Shown one piece after another: positions 2,188-31,093 of a stretch of 42,015 nt of DNA. Source of the stretch: Candidatus Saccharimonadota bacterium (GTDB lineage Bacteria; Patescibacteriota; Saccharimonadia; Saccharimonadales; Saccharimonadaceae); assembly GCA_017511645.1 (NCBI GenBank), contig JAFWJH010000009.1, positions 1 through 42,015 of the forward strand, given 5' to 3'. Positions within the stretch are counted from its first letter, which is position 1; each line of letters begins with the position of its first letter. The notes below the pieces were generated by a model, which was not told the origin of the DNA, did not search any database, and saw only the letters and a program-made list of their open reading frames with translations. Made by a program: the position numbers and the translations under genes.

Positions 2188-4383
2188 ATGTTCAAACGTA
2201 TAGTAAAGCGTGATGGGAAAATCGTAAAGTTTGACCCGGAGAAGATTACTGACGCGATAGCTAAAGCAGGGCTTGCGACAGAAGAGTTCAAATACGACCG
2301 CGCAAAGGCATTAACCGAAAAGGTGTTGAAACGGGCTGAAGAAGAAATCACTGCGCGCACGCCAAATGTTGAACAGATTCAAGACATTGTAGAAGAAGTA
2401 TTGATGGAATCATCTTTTAAGAAGACGGCACGGGAATATATTCAGTATCGTCAAGAGCGGTCACGCAGGCGTGAAGCAAAGTCTGATCTAATGATGATTT
2501 ACCGCACGATTTCGCATGCGGATGCTTCAGAAGATTCCGACGTGAAGCGCTCTAACGCGAACGTAGACGGCAATTCGGCCATGGGCAAGATGTTGCAATT
2601 TGGCGCTGAGGGTTCAAAAGTATTTGCTAAGTCTTTGCTGCTACGCCCAGATATTGCGGCGGCGCACGATAATGGTGATATTCATATTCATGACCTAGAT
2701 TTTTATGCGACGGGGACTTTGACTTGCTGCCAGAGTGACCCGTTTGTATTGTTTGGTAATGGTGGGTTTAATACCGGGCACGGACACTTGCGTACGCCAA
2801 ATTCGATTGGCTCTTATGCGGCACTTGCAGCGATTTTATTGCAAGCTAACCAAAACGAACAGCACGGAGGCCAGTCTATTCCGAACTTTGATTATGCGAT
2901 GGCACCAGGCGTGGACAAATCTTTCCGTAAAGCCCTGAAGCGAAACTTGGCTAAATATAATAAATTTGCCGGCAAGAAACTTGATTTGGAGGTAAAAGAC
3001 AGTTATCAATTTGGCGACGACAAAAAGCTCGAAAGAGCAAAATGGCCAAAGGAAGTAATCGAAGCATCAAATGAAGATGTTGAACGCGAGACATTACAAG
3101 CAATGGAAGGGTTCATTCATAACCTTAACACCATGCATTCACGGGCAGGGGCTCAGGTGCCATTTACTTCAATTAATTTTGGCACTGATACGACTCCGTC
3201 GGGTCGGTTGATTTCGAAATATCTGTTAGAAGCTACGGAAAATGGTCTCGGTAAGGGTGAGACGCCAATTTTCCCAATCTCAATTTTCAAGGTAAAAGAG
3301 GGTGTGAATTACAACCCTGAAGATCCAAATTATGATCTATTTAAGAGATCAATGGAGGTATCGGCAAAGAGGTTGTTCCCGAACTTTTGCTTCATAGATG
3401 CGCCATATAATTTGAAGTATTACAAAAAGGGTGATTATCGTACTGAAATCGCGACCATGGGTTGTAGGACACGGGTGTTTGCGTCCGTCTTTCCGGAGAG
3501 TGACGGTATTGTAACTGGGCGTGGTAACTTGTCGTTTACAACGGTAAACCTAGTGCGGATTGGTATTCATCATGGTATTTGCTTGGGTGAGCGCAAAGAA
3601 GCCGATTGGCAAGGGTTTTATAAAGAATTAGACGAGAAGATGGATCTAGTAAAAGATGAACTTTTGGAAAGGTTTGAATTCCAGGCCAATCAACACGTGC
3701 GCAACTTCCCATTCCTAATGGGGCAAGGAAACTGGTTTGGCAGCGAAAAGCTTGGGCCAAACGATACTCTGCGTGACGTGATCAAGCATGGTACGTTATC
3801 GATCGGCTTTATTGGTCTCGCGGAGACTTTGGTGGCAATGACCGGCAAGCATCATGGTGAAGATGAAGATTCGCGTGAGTTGGGTCTAGATATCATTACT
3901 CACATGCGTGAAAAATGTGATCAATATTGTAAGAAGTATAAATTGAACTTCTCGCTACTTGCAACCCCGGCTGAAGGTATCGCTGGGCGCTTTACCAAGA
4001 TTGATCGCAAAGAGTTTGGCGTGATTCCAGGTGTGACGGATCGTGATTTCTATACGAACTCATTCCACGTACCTGTGTATTATCCAATTTCGGCATTTGA
4101 GAAGATCGAGATTGAGGCACCATATCATAATCTTTGCAATGCTGGGCATATTACTTACATCGAGTTAGATGGTGACCCATCGCAGAATATTGCAGCGTTT
4201 GAGTCGGTAATCCGCAAAATGCACGATGAAGGTATCGGATATGGCTCAGTAAACCACCCAGTAGATCGCGATCCGATTTGCGGTTTCTCTGGTATCATCA
4301 CTGGCGATCGGTGCCCGCATTGCGGACGTCTCGAAGGTGATGTGCCGTTTGAAAAAATCTGTAATTGCGCTAAGGGTAAATAA
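2188..4383 (+). CDS. nrdD: Anaerobic (class III) ribonucleoside-triphosphate reductase, large subunit; glycyl-radical loop apparently absent
   Basis: The 731-aa protein starts after AAGGAGG. Residues ~1-95 form an ATP-cone (FKRIVKRDGKIVKFDPEKI start). The catalytic barrel follows, with the conserved TLTCCQ near residue 179, MGCRTRV near 430 and NLSFTTVNLVRI near 450, which hold the active-site cysteines. The C-terminal zinc module is reduced: DPICGFSG and CPHCG give three of the usual four Cys. Class III enzymes normally continue into an RxxGY(L) loop that carries the glycyl radical; here the protein ends shortly after VPFEKI with a CNCAKGK tail. The partner activase gene follows with a one-base overlap. 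Role: reduces NTPs to dNTPs without oxygen. Whether it is active without the loop is the open question. Confidence 0.93.
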   Translation: MFKRIVKRDGKIVKFDPEKITDAIAKAGLATEEFKYDRAKALTEKVLKRAEEEITARTPNVEQIQDIVEEVLMESSFKKTAREYIQYRQERSRRREAKSDLMMIYRTISHADASEDSDVKRSNANVDGNSAMGKMLQFGAEGSKVFAKSLLLRPDIAAAHDNGDIHIHDLDFYATGTLTCCQSDPFVLFGNGGFNTGHGHLRTPNSIGSYAALAAILLQANQNEQHGGQSIPNFDYAMAPGVDKSFRKALKRNLAKYNKFAGKKLDLEVKDSYQFGDDKKLERAKWPKEVIEASNEDVERETLQAMEGFIHNLNTMHSRAGAQVPFTSINFGTDTTPSGRLISKYLLEATENGLGKGETPIFPISIFKVKEGVNYNPEDPNYDLFKRSMEVSAKRLFPNFCFIDAPYNLKYYKKGDYRTEIATMGCRTRVFASVFPESDGIVTGRGNLSFTTVNLVRIGIHHGICLGERKEADWQGFYKELDEKMDLVKDELLERFEFQANQHVRNFPFLMGQGNWFGSEKLGPNDTLRDVIKHGTLSIGFIGLAETLVAMTGKHHGEDEDSRELGLDIITHMREKCDQYCKKYKLNFSLLATPAEGIAGRFTKIDRKEFGVIPGVTDRDFYTNSFHVPVYYPISAFEKIEIEAPYHNLCNAGHITYIELDGDPSQNIAAFESVIRKMHDEGIGYGSVNHPVDRDPICGFSGIITGDRCPHCGRLEGDVPFEKICNCAKGK

Positions 4384-4934
4384 TGACTGATTGGCATAAG
4401 ATTTCGCTAGAAAAACTTGCCAAACAAGCGGAAACGCCGGATGGAATGATCCGGCTTTCCGGCCCACTAGAGCATGATAATATCGTAAACGGTGATGGAT
4501 TGCGTGCAGTGGTATGGACACAGGGTTGCCCTAATCATTGTCCAGGTTGCCAAAATCCTGAGACTTGGAGCTACGAGGATGGATTTTTGTTTGAAATAGA
4601 TGAGATTTGTGAGCGGTTGTCGCAATTTAAAGGGCAGGCTGGGTTGACGTTTTGTGGTGGTGAGCCGTTCGTACAAGCCAAAGCCTGTAAAAAGATTGCT
4701 GATTATGTGCGCAAAGAATTAGGCTGGAACGTTTGGAGTTTTTCGGGATTTACTTATGAAGTGATCAAAGAATATGGTGGTGAGCCTTGGGAGTTTCTAA
4801 AATCTCTTGATGCTTTGATTGACGGTCCGTTTATACTTGAAAAACGCGACCTGAGCCTAAAATATCGTGGATCGAAAAATCAGCGACTTTTGCATCTAAA
4901 ACATGGTACTGGTGAGATCTTGGAGGTAGAATAA
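4383..4934 (+). CDS. nrdG: Anaerobic ribonucleotide reductase activating protein (radical SAM)
   Basis: This 183-aa protein overlaps the nrdD stop codon by one base (TAATG), so translation is probably coupled. The radical SAM iron-sulfur motif CPNHCPGC (CxxxCxxC) sits near residues 50-57, followed by the SAM-binding TFCGGEPF motif near 90. An N-terminal RLSGPLEHDNIVNGDGLR stretch is typical of NrdG. Its job in the family is to cleave S-adenosylmethionine and put the radical on the glycine of NrdD. The gene looks intact, which makes the missing glycine loop of its partner more puzzling. Confidence 0.95.
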   Translation: MTDWHKISLEKLAKQAETPDGMIRLSGPLEHDNIVNGDGLRAVVWTQGCPNHCPGCQNPETWSYEDGFLFEIDEICERLSQFKGQAGLTFCGGEPFVQAKACKKIADYVRKELGWNVWSFSGFTYEVIKEYGGEPWEFLKSLDALIDGPFILEKRDLSLKYRGSKNQRLLHLKHGTGEILEVE

Positions 4935-5771
4935 ATGTTTTCCGTTACACCAACGGGGCAGGAGTTCGACCTAGAGTTGAATAAGATATATACCGGTAAG
5001 ATTACCATTATAAATTCGAGTGACGCAGATAGTGATTTTAATTATCAAGTGTCTGCAGCTCCGTATAGCGTAATTGGTGAAGACTATGATGTTGATTTGG
5101 TCACAAAATCTAATCACTCAATGATGGCAGAGTGGATTACTATTAATAATCCAACTGGTAGCTTAAAGCCGGGTGAACAAAGAGAAGTAGAGTTCACTAT
5201 ATCGGTACCTGAATCGGCGCCAGCTGGCGGACAATATGCTTCTATTTTAGTGACGGAAGATAACCAGAGCTACAGTGGCGGTTCGGCGATTAATGGCGTG
5301 TTTGAAATTGCAAGCTTGGTTTATGCGAATGTGGCTGGCGAAACGTATCATGATGGCGAAATCTTGGAAAATAATATACCAGGCTTTATTATGTCTACAC
5401 CGATGTCGGTAGGGTCGCTACTATCAAACAATGGTAACATACACGAATCGGCCATTACATTATTACAGATCAAGAATCTTATAACCGGCGAGATAATTTT
5501 ATCGAAAGATCAAAATGGCGGGCGTTATTCGGAGGCGATTATGCCGGAAACGGTTAGACGCACTGACTATAAAATTGATAATTTACCAGCTGCAGGCTTG
5601 ATAGCAGTCACCCAGACGATATATTATGGCGGAGAAACTTCTGTTGAAACAAGAAATGTAGTGATTTGCCCGCTATGGTTTATGGCGGCGGTGGTAATAT
5701 TGATCGGGGTGATAATTAGTGCTGTTGTAGTAAGAATAAAAAAACGAAAACTAAAGAAATCGGCGATATAA
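4935..5771 (+). CDS. Membrane-anchored Ig-like surface protein (DUF916/WxL-like), no signal peptide
   Basis: Begins directly after the nrdG stop codon and in the same frame, with a good GGAGG site inside the end of nrdG. Residues 1-240 are beta-rich (FSVTPTGQEFDLELNKIYTG, then a GEQREVEFTISVP strand) and resemble the DUF916-type domain that accompanies WxL surface proteins of Gram-positives. Residues ~247-268 form one membrane helix followed by a KKRKLKK tail, which by the positive-inside rule should stay in the cytoplasm, leaving the domain outside. No signal peptide is present, although family members normally have one, so either the N-terminus was lost or export is unusual. It precedes a secreted FISUMP protein, consistent with a surface role. 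Confidence 0.7.
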   Translation: MFSVTPTGQEFDLELNKIYTGKITIINSSDADSDFNYQVSAAPYSVIGEDYDVDLVTKSNHSMMAEWITINNPTGSLKPGEQREVEFTISVPESAPAGGQYASILVTEDNQSYSGGSAINGVFEIASLVYANVAGETYHDGEILENNIPGFIMSTPMSVGSLLSNNGNIHESAITLLQIKNLITGEIILSKDQNGGRYSEAIMPETVRRTDYKIDNLPAAGLIAVTQTIYYGGETSVETRNVVICPLWFMAAVVILIGVIISAVVVRIKKRKLKKSAI

Positions 5772-5806: not shown

Positions 5807-5833
5807 ATTTACATAACCTTAATGGAAATAATT

Positions 5834-7396
5834 ATGCATAAAAAAGGTATCAGCTTTGTGATTTTGAGTATCGTAGGCGTATTTGCTATGCTTGGAGTAA
5901 TAGCATCTGGTGGCGATGTTTTTGCGGCACAATCTTGTACGACCGATAGCGAGACTGGGGTTATTACCTGTAGTAATTCGGCGAAAGCATCAGTAGTGGT
6001 AAGTACTTCGTGCGGCTTTGTAGCTACTGGTGGAGGTAGCTATAATTTGACACTTGCGAATAATAGCACCAGTAATGTAAATGGCAGTAAGTTTACGACT
6101 ACTTGCAATAGCCCCAATGGCTACGCGCTATATGCGGTAGGTTTTTCAGGCAATCAGGTAGGTAACACTAATCTATTAGCGCAGACTATTGGCAGCGCTT
6201 ACGATATTCAGACAGGTAGCGGTAGTAGCAACTGGAAGATGAACCTAACTTCTAGTGGCGATTACGGTACTGTGGTTCCTGAGTATGACGCCGGCACGGG
6301 CACCACTAAGAACTATGCAAATATCCCAGCTACGTATACAAAAGTAGCCTATTATGAGCCTGCTTCTGGTGACACTTCTACACAGTCGGTCTTCCAAACT
6401 AATTACCAGGCTACGGTCTCTAGTACGCAGCCAGCAGATAATTACGTTGGGCAGGTGAAATATGTTTTAATCCCTACTAATGGATCAATATCAAAAAGTA
6501 TTTTTGAGCTTGAGTATATGCAAGACTTTGCGAGTTTGACTTCTGCGCAAAAAGCGGATGTGTTGTCTTCTATGATTACAAATGAGCAATACCAACTAAA
6601 AGATAGCCGGGATGAAAAAACTTATTATATTTCTAAGCTAACAGACGGGAATGTATGGATGACAGAGAATCTAGATTTAGACTTTAATACTACTAATCCA
6701 GATGGTAGTATTGCTATGCGTACCTTTACGTCTAATGATACTAATCTTACTCTCTATGGTTCTAAAGGTTATGACACAAATAATGGTTACTCTTGTTCTA
6801 ATGATGATCCTACTTGTACAGGAGGCACTATTACCTGGACACCAGAAAGAGCTACCATAGCTCCAGAAGATCTTAGTTCTACTACTTGGAAGAATGATAA
6901 TAGTAACCCTTATTCCTATGATAGAGGCAACGTTGAACCAGATGGCTATAAAGATGGTCATGGTCAATCTGGTAACTATTACAACTGGACTGCTGCAATA
7001 GCATCCAATAATTCGTCTAGCTATGTTAGTGATGGTAATGCTGCTAACTCTATTTGTCCTAAAGGCTGGAGGTTACCGAACGCCGCATCGGTTGATGGAG
7101 GATATGAGTTCTCTAAAATGCTTTATGCTTATGGAGTAACCAAGGACGATAAAAACACGGCAGGATATGCTACAGGTGGTTACAATAAGATGGTAGCTAG
7201 CCCGCTTTACTTTGTGCGGTCCGGCTACGTCTATAATGGCTCGCTTATCAGTTCAGCTATCGGCGGGTACTACTGGTCTAGCGCGGTAGGCAGTACTTCT
7301 GGCGCCTTCAACCTGTTCTTCACTTCTGGTATTGTTAACCCGGCCAACTACTACAACAGGTACCGCGGCTGGTCCGTCCGCTGTTTGGCAGAGTAG
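5834..7396 (+). CDS. Secreted FISUMP-domain protein with a hypervariable C-terminus
   Basis: The 520-aa protein starts MHKK with a signal peptide ending near VFA-AQSC. ATG at 5822 is an alternative start; neither has a strong ribosome site. Residues ~30-215 form a Gly/Ser/Thr-rich beta domain with a Cys pair. Residues ~255-520 match the FISUMP (Fibrobacter succinogenes major paralogous) domain: GNVWMTENLDLDF, ICPKGWRLP, YYWSSA and a final SVRCLAE. It closely parallels the protein at 25837-27459 until the last ~47 codons, which differ by amino-acid-changing substitutions typical of a DGR variable region. No membrane anchor, LPxTG motif or lipobox is seen. Inferred role: a cell-surface ligand-binding or adhesion protein with a diversifiable tip. 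Confidence 0.85.
   Translation: MHKKGISFVILSIVGVFAMLGVIASGGDVFAAQSCTTDSETGVITCSNSAKASVVVSTSCGFVATGGGSYNLTLANNSTSNVNGSKFTTTCNSPNGYALYAVGFSGNQVGNTNLLAQTIGSAYDIQTGSGSSNWKMNLTSSGDYGTVVPEYDAGTGTTKNYANIPATYTKVAYYEPASGDTSTQSVFQTNYQATVSSTQPADNYVGQVKYVLIPTNGSISKSIFELEYMQDFASLTSAQKADVLSSMITNEQYQLKDSRDEKTYYISKLTDGNVWMTENLDLDFNTTNPDGSIAMRTFTSNDTNLTLYGSKGYDTNNGYSCSNDDPTCTGGTITWTPERATIAPEDLSSTTWKNDNSNPYSYDRGNVEPDGYKDGHGQSGNYYNWTAAIASNNSSSYVSDGNAANSICPKGWRLPNAASVDGGYEFSKMLYAYGVTKDDKNTAGYATGGYNKMVASPLYFVRSGYVYNGSLISSAIGGYYWSSAVGSTSGAFNLFFTSGIVNPANYYNRYRGWSVRCLAE
7232..7372 (+). other. Candidate DGR variable region 1 (47 codons)
   Basis: Aligned by hand with 25861-26001, this stretch has the same length and the same framework codons (TGGTCTAGCGCGGTA, CCGGCC, TCCGTCCG just after). 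Twenty-four codons change amino acid; in 22 of them the third base is unchanged and only positions 1 and 2 differ. The pairs are mostly of AAC/AAT origin (TAC/GAC, AAC/CGC, ATC/AGC, ACT/AAT). This is the mark of template-directed adenine mutagenesis of AAY codons in diversity-generating retroelements. No template repeat is in the window. Confidence 0.6.
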
Positions 7397-7477
7397 CTTC
7401 GTTCTCGCCTTATCCCCGCAACTCTTTTGTCGAGAAAATAGAATAAGAATAAAGAATAATAATGATAAAATAAAATC

Positions 7478-7799
7478 ATGAAGGCGGATGAGAAAAAGTA
7501 TCTGCTCACATCCAGCCAAAAGAAACAGATTTTAAAAGTCATCAACAAGCACATGAAAAAAGACAGCTACTTCCGCTCGGAAGTTTTCAACCTTTATTTT
7601 GACAACGATAACTACGACCTTATCATTCAGTCTATTGACCACCCACAGTTCAAATTATATTACTCATATAGGCATTATAGGCCTCTATTGGTCTAGTGTA
7701 GCATATGATGATAGTGGGGCGATCGTCTTCAGTGGGAGTACTTCGCATAATTATGGCGACAGAAGCTGGGGATATTCAGTGCGTTGCGTGTTAAGATAA
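7478..7799 (+). pseudogene. Chimeric remnant: VTC polymerase N-terminus joined to a FISUMP C-terminus
   Basis: Bases 7478 to about 7653 encode the first ~57 residues of a VTC-type polyphosphate polymerase. From EKKY to QFK the 55 residues differ at only five places from the intact gene at 25064-25789. The copy then stops abruptly, before the catalytic KLRARSYGG. From about 7654, in another frame, the sequence encodes the last ~48 residues of a FISUMP protein (GLYWSS to WGYSVRCVLR, TAA at 7797-7799). The two pieces are out of frame, so this is not a working fusion. It reads as the scar of a deletion in an ancestral row FISUMP - VTC - ... - FISUMP, and it shows that the FISUMP-VTC unit was duplicated. 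Confidence 0.75.
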
Positions 7800-7828: not shown

Positions 7829-8608
7829 ATGAAGATTGCGGTGTTGGGCGCGGGGGCATATGGCAAAGCGCTTGGAGGTACTTTGGAAGATAATAAGTAT
7901 GAGGTGGCTTATTTTGATCCAAAAATCAAAGATTGTAGTTTGGAAGTGGTACTGGATGGGGCTAAGTATGCATTATTAGCTACGCCGTCGGAGGCAGTGG
8001 CAAAATTATTAGGTAAGTTGCCGAAAGACATCCCGCTAATTGTGGCGACAAAAGGGCTTTTGTCTACTGAGGTTTTTGATGATTTTAAAAATTATATGAT
8101 AGTGAGCGGGCCTAGCTTTGCAAATGACCTTGAGGCAAGAAAACTGACACGGTTAACCGCCACAAATGCAAAGGTGGCTGAGCTTCTAGCTACGGATTAT
8201 ATTACGTTTGATTTTACAAACGACAAACGCGGAGTATTACTATGCGGATCATTAAAAAATGCGTATGCAATATATGCTGGGATATTAGGGATAAGACCTG
8301 GTACCGCAAAGCATAAATTATATATAGATAGCGCAGTAGATGAATTAAAGCAGATTTTAATTGCAAATGAAGCGAAGGCAGATACGGTAGAATTGTCTTG
8401 TGGTAGAGGCGATTTAGAAATTACCTGTGGGCCACCGTCTAGGAATTATGAGTTTGGGCAGATGCTCAAGAAAGACATAAGCGTGAAGCCAGAAAAAACC
8501 GTGGAAGGTGTGGCTACTTTAAAGCGCGTACAGAAAGGCGAAATTATGGTACCAGATACAGCAAAAATACTAAAAGAATTAATTAAGATAAGCAAAAAAT
8601 GGGATTAA
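7829..8608 (+). CDS. gpsA: NAD(P)-dependent glycerol-3-phosphate dehydrogenase-like protein
   Basis: Start chosen at MKIAVLGAGAYGKALG, where the Rossmann GxGxxG motif begins at residue 7, as in the family; an upstream in-frame ATG would add a non-homologous tail that overlaps the promoter. Other family marks are GPSFANDL near 100, LKNAYAIYAG near 145 (catalytic Lys), GRGDLEITC near 200 and RNYEFG near 212. At 259 aa it is clearly shorter than the usual ~330 aa, with a compressed nucleotide-binding half. Expected reaction: dihydroxyacetone phosphate to sn-glycerol-3-phosphate for lipid synthesis. It overlaps the following helicase gene by 10 bases. Confidence 0.85.
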   Translation: MKIAVLGAGAYGKALGGTLEDNKYEVAYFDPKIKDCSLEVVLDGAKYALLATPSEAVAKLLGKLPKDIPLIVATKGLLSTEVFDDFKNYMIVSGPSFANDLEARKLTRLTATNAKVAELLATDYITFDFTNDKRGVLLCGSLKNAYAIYAGILGIRPGTAKHKLYIDSAVDELKQILIANEAKADTVELSCGRGDLEITCGPPSRNYEFGQMLKKDISVKPEKTVEGVATLKRVQKGEIMVPDTAKILKELIKISKKWD

Positions 8609-24399: not shown

Positions 24400-25071
24400 T
24401 TAGATCTCCTCTTCCTGGCAAGGATGAGAGAGTAGAACCTTGAGATTACAGTTTTTCACGCGAATCTCATCGAGAAAATCTTTTTCTTTGACGCCGTTTT
24501 TCATGGTGACATCATAAGTAAGTTTGTAGAGACTGCCCATATTCACGGTTTTCATCTTGGTAAGGTCAGCCCGAGATGTATATTTTTTGAAAATGTCATT
24601 AAAGACTTCTTCGTAGTCTAAGTCTTCTGGTACGACGATTTTAAGCACGCGCTGTTTTTTGTTTGGCTCGAGAAAAGGAGTGTAAGTGAAGAAGAGAATT
24701 GCCACCACCGCAATCGCCGTAATGACAGCAGCAAACAAAATATGCCCCATGCCGCAGGCCAGACCGACCATCATGGCAAAGAAGACACTAAGAAGATCCT
24801 TGGCCTTACCCTGAATAGAGCGGAAACGAATCAAAGAAAACGCACCAAGAATAGCAATAGAAGTGCCAAGATTGCCATTGATCATAATCATCACAGCCAT
24901 CACCAGTAAAGGTAGAGTAGCGAGCGTCACCAAGAAACCTTTGGTGGTCTGCGAAGTCTTCATATGCATAATGGCGATGACGACGCCAAGTAGCAGAGCA
25001 ACGCCGGCGCAAATCAGCCCGGTAGTAATATCGAGTCCCGTAGAAGTCGTGTCGAAAATAGTATTAAACAT
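24400..25071 (-). CDS. DUF4956 membrane protein
   Basis: 223 aa. Four predicted membrane helices occupy residues ~17-130; the conserved GNLGTSIAILGAFSLIRFRS block lies in the loop region near 66-85. A soluble C-terminal domain of ~90 residues (RVLKIVVPEDLDYEEVF) follows. The family function is unknown, but it is found again and again next to VTC-type polymerases and CotH or beta-helix proteins, implying a shared membrane system for making or exporting a polymer. Overlaps the VTC stop by eight bases. Confidence 0.88.
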   Translation of the reverse strand: MFNTIFDTTSTGLDITTGLICAGVALLLGVVIAIMHMKTSQTTKGFLVTLATLPLLVMAVMIMINGNLGTSIAILGAFSLIRFRSIQGKAKDLLSVFFAMMVGLACGMGHILFAAVITAIAVVAILFFTYTPFLEPNKKQRVLKIVVPEDLDYEEVFNDIFKKYTSRADLTKMKTVNMGSLYKLTYDVTMKNGVKEKDFLDEIRVKNCNLKVLLSHPCQEEEI

Positions 25072-25789
25072 GGTTTTCCTTTCTTAGTTTTTCATATACT
25101 CTACCAACTTTGGAAAATTGCTGCGGATAGATTTTTTCCTCTGACATAACTTTGGCGAGCCAAAGGGGAATAATACCATGCGCTTTAACTTCCATGATGA
25201 TATTTTGCTTGTCCTTAAAATAAATTTTATCACGCTTTCCTTTAACAAGGCTGAGATTTTTGTAACGATATCTTAGCTTTTCGTCAAAAGTGATGCGCAG
25301 AGCATCTTCGCCTTTATAACTTTCGCGGTTATACATGACGAGGAGTTTGGGTTTTAGGTCGAAATGTTCGATAAGGTAGTCTACTTCTCTTGCGATTTGG
25401 AGGTCATGAGCTGTCTCGATAGAACGGCTGGCCAACTCGACCATTGTAGCTTTACCTTTGATTAATTCGTCAAAATCTTGATGAGTAATCATGACGCGGC
25501 GCTTATAGCCGAGATTATTTTCTTTACCTTTTAATTTGGTCTTGATTTCGAGGAATACGCGGTCGTAACCGCCGTAGCTACGGGCGCGAAGCTTTTCCTT
25601 GAACTGTGGGCGGTCGATGGACTGAATGATAAGGTCGTAGTTATCGTTGTCAAAATAAAGGTTGAAAACTTCCGAGCGGAAGTAGCTGTCTTTTTCCATA
25701 TGCTCGTTGACGACTTTGAGGATCTTTTTCTTTTGGCTGGATGTGAGCAGATACTTTTTCTCGATCCGGTCAAAAACTTTGGTTTCCAT
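25064..25789 (-). CDS. VTC-domain polyphosphate polymerase
   Basis: 241 aa, a single tunnel-shaped VTC domain without SPX or membrane parts. The basic tunnel residues seen in the yeast Vtc4 family are all identifiable: EKKYLL at the start, KEKLRARSYGG near 63, FLEIKTK near 80, KRRVMI near 93, YNRESY near 152, LRITFDEKLRYRY near 165 and IIMEVKAHG near 205 (metal-binding Glu). Expected reaction: ATP to polyphosphate, although the bacterial members may make another polymer. It sits in a tight operon with the upstream FISUMP gene (47 bases) and the downstream DUF4956 gene. A truncated copy of its start lies at 7478-7653. Confidence 0.88.
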   Translation of the reverse strand: METKVFDRIEKKYLLTSSQKKKILKVVNEHMEKDSYFRSEVFNLYFDNDNYDLIIQSIDRPQFKEKLRARSYGGYDRVFLEIKTKLKGKENNLGYKRRVMITHQDFDELIKGKATMVELASRSIETAHDLQIAREVDYLIEHFDLKPKLLVMYNRESYKGEDALRITFDEKLRYRYKNLSLVKGKRDKIYFKDKQNIIMEVKAHGIIPLWLAKVMSEEKIYPQQFSKVGRVYEKLRKENHV

Positions 25790-25836: not shown

Positions 25837-27459
25837 TTATTCGGCGAGGCACCGGACGGACAAGCCGTAGCTCCCGCTATTGCTGTAGGCCGGGCGAACA
25901 CTACTAGAATTGAAGTACTGGTCAAAGGCAAAAGAAGCACTGTCTACCGCGCTAGACCAGTAGTCCCCGCTGCCAGCCGAATTGCTAAGCGAGCCATTAT
26001 TGACATAGCCGGACCGCACAAAGTAGAGAGGACTAGAAACCATTTTATTAAAGCTAGTAGAACCATCAGCATATCCTGCCGTATTCTTATCATCCTTAGT
26101 AATGTCATAGGCATAAAGCAGTTTAGAAAATTCATAGGTTCTAGTATCTGGTAGTCTCCATCCTTTAGGACAAATAGAGTTAGTAGCATTACCACTAGTG
26201 TAACTATTCGATGAATTAGAAGCAATAGTTGCAGTCCAGTTATAGTAATTACCAGCTTTACCATGGCCATCTTTATATCCATCTGGTTCAACGTTGCCTC
26301 TATCATAGGAATAAGGGTTACTATTATCATTCTTCCAAGTAGTAGAGCTAAGATCTTCTGGAGCTATGGTAGCTCTTTCTGGTGTCCAAGAGATGATTTC
26401 TCCACTAGATGTACAATTAGTAGTGGTAGCCGTATTAGAGCACGTATAACCATTATTACTATCATAACCATAACTACCATAGAGGGTGAGGTTAGTATCA
26501 TTAGACGTAAAGGTACGCATAGCAATGCTACCATCTGGTTTAGTAGTATTAAAGTCTAGGTCTAAGTTCTCTGTCATCCAACATTGGCCTACATTGTCAT
26601 CCATGTAGTCAGTTTTGAGCTTAGTTACCCAGTAGATACTGTTGTCTCTTGTATCTACTACTTCTAGGTCTGATGCAGTGCCAAAGACATTAGCCGCATT
26701 ACAAATAGATGAACTCATATCCTGCATCTTGTAATAATAGTTAGTTTCTCCAGTACTAGGGTCTACTATAGGTACTTTAGATTTGCCAGCATTCTTGAAG
26801 GCTTCAGCTAGAGTAGTAGGCTGGACAGCAGAGGATGGATGAAACATGACGTACTTAACTTGGCCAGTATAGGTACCAGAAGCTTGAGTGCCACTAATAT
26901 AGGCATCATAGGTAGCAGTGATCTTAGAACCAGTAGTACTATCTACAGTACCACTCTGTTTCTTGGCTATTTCAGTCCAGGTAGAGGGGATAGTATGGAA
27001 GAGATTATCATTGTAACCAGAAGATATAGCTACAGTACCATCAGTATTACCTAGTTTAAAGGACCAGGAAGAGGTGGTAGTATCTATATGATCAGGATCA
27101 TATACTCCTGTAGCAATATTAGACCCGCTAGTACCAACTAGATTAGTATTACCTTCTGTACCGTCACTAGCCCCTCTAGCATAGACAATAAAGCCATCCT
27201 TATCATTGCAGTACATTGTAAAGGTAGTAGGTGCTCCACCTAGATTAGGATAGTATTGATTGTTTATTACTGATTGGGTATGGGTAGAAGATGATCCTCC
27301 ATCTATGGTACAAGAGACTGGTAGATTAAGAGTAAGTTTATCCACATTAGATTTATCGGCAAAGACAGGAACATTAGAATAGGAACTAATACTTACAATA
27401 AAGCCTAGGATTAATAATGCTACACTATAAAGATATACTTTGGTTAGTTTGTGGCCCAT
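25837..27459 (-). CDS. Secreted FISUMP-domain protein, second copy, heading the VTC operon
   Basis: 540 aa from MGHKLTKVYL, after a GTGAGGTAAAAGGT site; an upstream in-frame ATG would run through the structured leader. The signal peptide ends near VFADKSN. A beta-rich domain with a Cys pair (residues ~38-230) is followed by a FISUMP domain from ~280: CWMTENLDLDF, WTPERATIAPEDLSS, ICPKGWRLPD, DYWSSAV and SVRCLAE. From CWMTENL onward it closely follows the protein at 5834-7396, apart from the ~47-codon variable stretch near the end. No cell-wall sorting signal is visible. As first gene of the operon it is probably the displayed, binding component of the surface system. Confidence 0.85.
   Translation of the reverse strand: MGHKLTKVYLYSVALLILGFIVSISSYSNVPVFADKSNVDKLTLNLPVSCTIDGGSSSTHTQSVINNQYYPNLGGAPTTFTMYCNDKDGFIVYARGASDGTEGNTNLVGTSGSNIATGVYDPDHIDTTTSSWSFKLGNTDGTVAISSGYNDNLFHTIPSTWTEIAKKQSGTVDSTTGSKITATYDAYISGTQASGTYTGQVKYVMFHPSSAVQPTTLAEAFKNAGKSKVPIVDPSTGETNYYYKMQDMSSSICNAANVFGTASDLEVVDTRDNSIYWVTKLKTDYMDDNVGQCWMTENLDLDFNTTKPDGSIAMRTFTSNDTNLTLYGSYGYDSNNGYTCSNTATTTNCTSSGEIISWTPERATIAPEDLSSTTWKNDNSNPYSYDRGNVEPDGYKDGHGKAGNYYNWTATIASNSSNSYTSGNATNSICPKGWRLPDTRTYEFSKLLYAYDITKDDKNTAGYADGSTSFNKMVSSPLYFVRSGYVNNGSLSNSAGSGDYWSSAVDSASFAFDQYFNSSSVRPAYSNSGSYGLSVRCLAE
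25861..26001 (-). other. Candidate DGR variable region 2 (47 codons)
   Basis: Counterpart of 7232-7372, equal in length and with the same framework codons. Variable codons here include AAT, AGC, GGC, GAC, TTT, CAG, TAC, CGC and GGG where the other copy has TAT, ATC, TAC, GGC, CTG, TTC, AAC and AGG. Within the core only one purely silent difference (TTC/TTT) accompanies the many replacements, the reverse of normal paralogue drift. Confidence 0.6.
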
Positions 27460-27659
27460 ACCTTTTACCTCACTTAGATTATTAAGCTCTTGTGGTGCCA
27501 CCTTTATAACGGGAATTAACGAAAATGGCACCGCGAGGGGTGCAATTACTAACAGCTAATATCCGAATTCGAACATGGCTGTAAAGTTCCTCGCGGTACG
27601 ATTTTCACCATGTTCAAATCATTAAAATGATTCGGAAAAATTTAGTTGTTGATAATTGC
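27460..27659 (-). promoter_or_regulatory. 200-nt structured 5' leader with a pseudoknot, candidate regulatory RNA
   Basis: Pairings on the minus strand: 27630-27636 with 27562-27568 (TCCGAAT/ATTCGGA); 27608-27618 with 27568-27578 (TTTGAACATGG / CCATGTTCGAA, one mismatch); a side hairpin at 27617-27632; and the loop segment 27589-27597 (ACCGCGAGG) with downstream 27530-27538 (CCTCGCGGT), which makes a pseudoknot. Competing with it, 27526-27532 (GGTGCCA) can pair with 27494-27500 (TGGCACC). The last region reads AAAGGTGGCACC, matching the core GGUGGNACC of T-box leaders, but I can place neither a specifier loop nor a full antiterminator. Class unknown. Confidence 0.6.
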
Positions 27660-30904: not shown

Positions 30905-30922
30905 TGGCTAGGGTGGAGGGAT
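30905..30922 (-). repeat. 18-bp copy of the tRNA-Gln 3' end
   Basis: TGGCTAGGGTGGAGGGAT is identical to 31019-31036, the last 18 bases of tRNA-Gln including CCA. The bases further in (toward the T arm) are degenerate. Direct repeats of a tRNA 3' end usually mark integration or excision of a mobile element; the 114-base interval holds only a hairpin. Confidence 0.6.
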
Positions 30923-30971
30923 GAGGAACCTCACTTCGTTCGGTGCGAACCATGGGCTCGTATCCCTTCAC

Positions 30972-31018: not shown

Positions 31019-31093
31019 TGGCTAGGGTGGAGGGATTCGAACCCCCGAATGGTGGGGCCAGAACCCACTGCCTTACCACTTGGCGACACCCTA
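31019..31093 (-). tRNA. tRNA-Gln (anticodon CUG)
   Basis: On the minus strand the acceptor TAGGGTG pairs with CACCCTA, followed by G and encoded CCA (31019-31021). The D-arm is GCCAAGTGGTAAGGC, the anticodon stem GTGGG/CCCAC carries loop TTCTGGC (anticodon CTG), and the T-arm GGGGG-TTCGAAT-CCCTC closes the cloverleaf. Confidence 0.93.

Follow-up and report, generated by a model that had tools for sequence, protein, structure and literature searches.

FISUMP genes and their variable tails

Two genes for FISUMP-domain proteins are present in the window, the whole analysed stretch of 42,015 nucleotides, which is contig C8 of the assembly. Copy 1 (5822-7396, plus strand), here regarded as the target of a diversity-generating retroelement (DGR), is an open reading frame of 524 amino acids matching the model TIGR02145 with 45.9 bits against a cut-off of 41.65. 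Copy 2 (25837-27531, minus strand) is an open reading frame of 564 amino acids matching it with 47.9 bits. In the profile search, the match to PF09603 (FISUMP/Fib_succ_major) lay under its cut-off; the AlphaFold2 model of the FISUMP target has a mean pLDDT of 45, too low to confirm a C-type-lectin fold of the variable domain. Copy 1 is adjoined by a gene (4935-5771, plus strand) encoding a WxL-interacting-protein-like (WxLIP) surface protein, which has homologues by tblastn and a weak, below-cut-off match to PF06030. Because of this neighbour and of the N-terminus of the copy-1 protein, hydrophobic and signal-peptide-like by eye, the FISUMP protein is plausibly a cell-surface binder.

The variable repeat (VR) of copy 1 (7214-7396, plus strand), reading VRSG...VRCLAE-stop, comprises the last 61 codons and aligns without gaps to the VR of copy 2 (26019-25837, minus strand), as the first-pass annotation had reported for the two tails. 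Its hypervariable core codons (7226-7375, plus strand) were delimited in a codon alignment of the five copies of this genome and the template repeats (TRs) of relatives. In codons 5-54, copies 1 and 2 encode different amino acids at 24 codons, and in 22 of these the third base is unchanged; this realignment reproduced the earlier count exactly to the codon. The framework codons, described earlier as identical, are nearly so, three silent codons (5, 14 and 32) being different. The window also contains two direct repeats of 47 bases (30905-30951 and 31019-31065), 114 bases apart, 70% alike and possibly tRNA-like.

A VR DNA search of the whole assembly revealed five FISUMP genes with such tails, the third to fifth VR copies being located at C2:68268-68452, C9:12063-12247 and C1:61195-61372. 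All five strong matches fall on the coding ends of FISUMP genes, each about 530-570 codons long, and the four copies other than copy 1 were also checked with the NCBIfam model TIGR02145; the only further matches in the assembly are three short, weak ones. Two more FISUMP genes, the sixth (C1:26553-27329) and the seventh (C2:36647-37294), were left out of the VR family, their tails being too diverged in DNA. No match to the VR pattern was found in viral contigs.

Among the five copies, 57 of the 150 columns of the VR core are variable, distributed over codon positions 1, 2 and 3 as 23, 23 and 11, versus 39 of 123 columns in the 41 codons just upstream, distributed as 11, 7 and 21 (Fisher p = 8e-4 for the codon-position contrast). 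The copies on C1 and C2 differ by 1 of 123 upstream bases versus 28 of 150 bases of the VR core. A mutator focused on the VR leaves just such a local reversal of the usual pattern; ordinary divergence does not easily yield it. Drift, several template versions or recombination acted on the five VRs too, since 16 variable columns, many of them third positions, have no adenine in any of the five copies, and the VRs are also unlike at their 3' ends. At the same time, the five tails have common framework bases unlike those of the templates of relatives (for example, GCG GTA in codons 24-25) and therefore belong to one template lineage of their own.

Complete DGRs in genomes of the same genus

In a DGR, a template RNA is reverse-transcribed by a complex of reverse transcriptase (RT) and Avd, which makes errors at the adenines; the resulting cDNA then takes the place of the VR. 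A VR DNA search in 100 relatives yielded same-genus genomes in which one VR copy lies beside an RT. The complete DGR of these relatives consists of a FISUMP target, an Avd-domain protein, an RT and an asparagine-rich template, which reads VRSGNVNNGNLNNPG...NVNPANNNNRNNGRSVRC and then a stop codon. Mismatches between TR and VR face a template adenine in 23/23 cases in G056, 19/20 in G009, 22/23 in G035 and 21/22 in G054; TR and VR translations were seen for G191 and G196 as well. The motifs IGNLTSQ and YVDD are invariant in the RTs of these six genomes, the DGR RT signature being (I/V/L)GxxxSQ and YxDD (PMC3521204). The best solved relative of the RT by sequence is 8ub7_A, from an entry titled as a DGR ribonucleoprotein, and the RT profile matches 96 of 174 genomes of the genus.

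The gene before the RT in G056 encodes a protein of 280 amino acids, residues 158-279 of which were modelled as an Avd four-helix bundle (4dwl, Z 14.4, rmsd 1.9 A over 109 residues; 8ub8, Z 13.9). Since the same model matches other helical bundles with Z up to 13.3, its identity as Avd rests on fold together with gene position. The Avd-domain proteins of the relatives have no match to any Pfam or NCBIfam Avd model. Several carry N-terminal additions (L037 5020-5862, minus strand; L039 1778-2779, plus; L040 3565-4587, plus; L146 4788-5858, minus): an alpha/beta domain in G056 and relatives, and a helix-turn-helix (HTH) repressor-like domain in G054, with a similar start in G116. Judged by their genes, the systems of the relatives are genuine DGRs with FISUMP targets; they would act by mutagenic retrohoming.

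The template is inverted relative to the target, Avd and RT, which share a strand, at 3634-3870 of L037 (G056), 4159-4394 of L038 (G009) and 5775-6009 of L040 (G054), and likewise in L053 and L056; in all, this orientation relative to RT and target was found in G056, G191, G196, G009 and G054. A template inverted relative to the RT would therefore have to be transcribed separately from it. In G035 (L039), template and target lie together on the strand opposite to the RT. A second type of DGR is represented in L146 (contig C40 of G116), with an HTH-Avd and the target tail FLYSGYA...TVRCVVAPSS; accordingly, at least two families of DGR targets occur in one genus.

The five VRs of the studied genome were aligned to the TRs of G056, G009 and G196. 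Columns with a template adenine vary in 36-37 of 53-54 cases, versus 20-21 of 96-97 other columns; the three contingency tables (36, 18; 21, 75), (37, 16; 20, 77) and (36, 17; 21, 76) give Fisher p = 4e-9 to 7e-8, about 1e-8, for the match of variable columns to TR adenines. Within this genome itself, a variable repeat with adenine-derived replacements and a conserved framework was found at the 3' end of the gene. A DGR origin of the FISUMP tails is well supported by these alignments, because DGRs of the same genus act on the same tail and the variable columns coincide with template adenines; on both counts, the earlier designation of the tails as DGR targets is borne out.

Five dispersed FISUMP copies of G056 gave a similar table against the G056 template (32, 22; 14, 82; p = 2e-8), with 17-26 further mismatches to this resident template at non-adenine sites. 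The framework of these five tails (contigs C2, C3, C4 and C8 of G056; L041, L042, L044-L046) reads IYPARN or VYPARN and is distinct from that of the resident template. Tails with a framework of their own that nevertheless vary at template-adenine columns imply another or an older template. Dispersed targets that are adenine-patterned and not freshly rewritten are thus not peculiar to the studied genome.

The copy-1 locus and the missing machinery

The conserved left flank of copy 1 is formed by nrdD (2188-4383) and nrdG (4383-4934), with 77-94% identity to the G009 and G035 loci by tblastn; the conserved right flank is formed by gpsA (7829-8608) and, from 8599, a UvrD-type helicase gene, with 52% and 72% identity to G009. 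The genes nrdD, nrdG and gpsA are on the plus strand. G009 has the same neighbours, with avd, RT, TR, sufS and sufU between target and gpsA, and G035 has the nrdD-nrdG-WxLIP-target part in common with the copy-1 locus. In G056, G191, G196, G009 and G035, a WxLIP-type gene adjoins either the target or the template of the DGR.

Copy 1 is followed by a flank, an avd stump, a VTC piece, a FISUMP tail and gpsA. The VR 3' flank with the intergenic stretch of the former cassette (7403-7477, plus strand), containing CCGCAACTCTTTTGTCGAGA, is homologous to the target-avd interval of the relatives: 7403-7494 is 78% identical to that of G196 over 98 columns (blastn, E 3e-10), with a local score of 79 versus a maximum of 37 in 5000 shuffles. 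In the relatives, TR/VR identity ends inside the CCGCAACTCTTTTGTCGAGA element. The 3' flank of the copy-1 VR reads CTTCGTTCTCGCCTTATCCCCGCAACTCTTT; of the five copies, only copy 1 keeps this flank, which is common to TR and VR in the relatives, and it is absent from the other four. The remnant of the avd gene start (7478-7495, plus strand), ATG AAG GCG GAT GAG AAA, encodes MKADEK; the Avd of G196 begins with MKADEKSKTK.

Fused to this stump is a 5' piece of a VTC-domain gene (7490-7653, plus strand), 93% identical, as an inverted repeat, to 25599-25762 in the intact VTC-domain gene downstream of copy 2 (25064-25789, minus strand; PF09359, E 5e-35). The switch from the avd start to the VTC piece occurs at the shared GAGAAAAAG. 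The resulting chimeric frame (7478-7700), MKADEK continued by KYLLTSSQKK..., in which a truncated VTC domain follows the avd start, is probably a dead by-product of rearrangement. The 3' tail of another FISUMP gene (7668-7799, plus strand), IGIIGLYWSSVAYDDSG...SVRCVLR-stop in a frame read by eye, was weighed as a possible template but dismissed, because it is not rich in asparagine and does not resemble the VRs in DNA.

Since synteny with the DGR locus of relatives, the VR 3' flank and the avd start are all kept, copy 1 is likely to have been a cis target, and rearrangement to have destroyed its cassette. The first-pass annotation had both genes served in trans, which is not supported: copy 1 has the syntenic position and the avd stump, neither machinery nor template was found in the 77%-complete assembly, and present-day service in trans had no backing even in the near-complete genome G056, where dispersed copies mismatch the resident template at sites other than adenines. 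More than a simple deletion took place, since other rearrangements affected the site: sufS and sufU are here on contig C6, beside gyrase genes, without the cassette.

The copy on C2 lies in the order raiA-serS-WxLIP-target-rsmA, without a cassette. At the same site G056, G191 and G196 have a cassette of TR, RT and Avd, with WxLIP on one side and the target on the other, and the C2 copy may once have had its own cassette, as these relatives do. G116 likewise has no cassette at the serS site, its RT belonging to a different DGR, and the WxLIP tree leaves the branching of G000, G116 and the cassette-bearing clade unordered. For these two reasons, a gain in the cassette-bearing clade is equally possible, and the empty site as proof of loss was withdrawn.

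The assembly comprises 523,738 bases in 9 contigs and is 76.7% complete, many complete relatives having 700-900 kb. In the whole of this approximately 77%-complete assembly, no match was found to RVT_1, to the RT of the relatives or to the RT profile; the Avd protein has no homologue in it besides the six-codon stump at 7478-7495; and no template repeat was found in it, the five strong VR matches all being coding. The whole-genome search proposed earlier, for an RT and an adenine template, thus returned neither from the 77%-complete assembly. The earlier remark that the window has no RT, Avd or template is accurate for intact genes and extends to the whole assembly, but it missed the avd start remnant. 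The machinery has probably been lost by now, which we judge likelier than its survival in the unassembled quarter of the genome.

Origin of the five tails and related systems

The explanation that we consider fairly probable as a whole combines DGR-written tails, the loss of the cis cassette of copy 1 and dispersed paralogues. A DGR RT would have used a template rich in asparagine codons (AAC/AAT), introducing mutations at adenines as it copied, and the resulting cDNA would have been substituted for the gene's 3' end, with about 24 residues altered and the frame preserved. Copy 1 would have been the cis target at the conserved locus nrdD-nrdG-WxLIP-target-avd-RT-TR-...-gpsA, from which avd, RT and TR were then deleted, with the junction in the first avd codons joined to the piece of the VTC gene. 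The other four copies, including copy 2, would be dispersed paralogues, their tails derived from the same template lineage and gained through trans retrohoming or else copied over from cis targets. The proteins may bind a host cell or a surface ligand. We infer the order of events, the present inactivity and the binding role. A scenario of diversification and subsequent freezing, in which a DGR wrote surface tails, these spread over at least five loci, the mutator was lost and the paralogues became fixed with differing specificity, is a tentative one, with chances just short of even.

For the dispersed copies, the alternative that they were never hit in trans, cis-diversified tails having spread by duplication or gene conversion as a frozen repertoire, is possible, though we lean somewhat against it. 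The identity between copies is mosaic, as expected from such spreading: in sliding comparison, the C2 copy is 100% identical to the C1 copy just upstream and 70% at the 3' end, where it is 93% identical to the C9 copy. The dispersed copies of G056, which vary at template adenines yet have 17-35 non-adenine mismatches, agree with it as well. However, the C1 and C2 copies combine a matching upstream stretch with different VRs, so rewriting in place must have affected one or both of them, possibly from a former cassette at the C2 site such as relatives have there.

A live DGR in the unassembled part of the genome, diversifying the five targets in trans after the machinery had moved from the copy-1 locus, is unlikely. 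The incompleteness and small size of the assembly relative to complete relatives leave room for it; TR/VR repeats break assemblies, the five targets have the framework of one template lineage, DGR-type RTs occur in more than half of the genus genomes (96/174), and other bacteria are known to have trans targets (PMC10907252). However, the copy-1 site, the C2 serS-WxLIP-rsmA site and the C6 sufS-sufU site are all empty, the flank common to TR and VR is kept by copy 1 only, and the copies differ at non-adenine sites, which makes recent rewriting from a single template less likely. Ordinary diversifying selection, or phase variation by recombination of paralogues, with no DGR involved, would fit the excess of replacements over silent changes and the mosaic upstream regions, but it is very improbable given that the variable columns fall on adenines in real templates from relatives, that complete DGRs of the genus act on the same tail and that an avd stump adjoins copy 1.

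Under the explanation by DGR-written tails and a lost cis cassette, this is a system of a known kind, here orphaned, in which the targets are left and the cassette is reduced to a datable scar. Many Saccharibacteria live attached to other bacteria, and the data suggest that hypervariable surface proteins are acquired, lost and passed on among them from one species to the next. DGR surveys requiring an RT near the repeat miss targets that have no adjacent machinery; such orphaned targets may be recognised by variable columns falling on the template adenines of a relative, together with the stump of a cassette. Genomes with and without the mutator acting on the same protein family offer a natural comparison, by which it can be tested whether DGR variation is continually needed or is useful once fixed. 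A text search of the literature for DGR together with FISUMP found no paper. Fib_succ_major is among the human-microbiome DGR targets, nine target proteins being listed (PMC4159848); in contrast to the present genes, those are template-associated and from other organisms, and the passage on them describes no orphaned family.

DGRs of CPR bacteria form a recognised clade, DGR clade 2 of Roux et al. 2021 (PMC8144416). The systems of the relatives resemble these Patescibacteria/CPR DGRs in phylum, cellular location, adenine mutagenesis, surface-type target and C-terminal VR; the studied genome differs from them in having no RT, Avd or template, while the target genes remain. To the DGR of Bordetella phage BPP-1 (mtd, avd, brt) the relatives are similar in their RT, which resembles that of the solved DGR ribonucleoprotein, and in their Avd domain, which has the Bordetella Avd fold, whereas their target is FISUMP and not Mtd, their Avd (280 amino acids) has an extra N-terminal alpha/beta domain, and five genomes (G056, G191, G196, G009 and G054) have a template in inverted orientation to RT and target. 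In Thiohalocapsa PB-PSB1 (PMC10907252), targets with no adjacent RT and incomplete DGR loci likewise occur in one genome. Some remote VRs there match the resident template at all non-adenine sites, whereas the studied genome has no template in its assembly and the dispersed VRs of G056 fail this match. The inverted DGRs of DiGReF group 4 (PMC3521204) likewise have RT, template and target split over two strands; in that group, template and target share the strand opposite to the RT, as in G035, while in systems of the G056 type the template alone is inverted.
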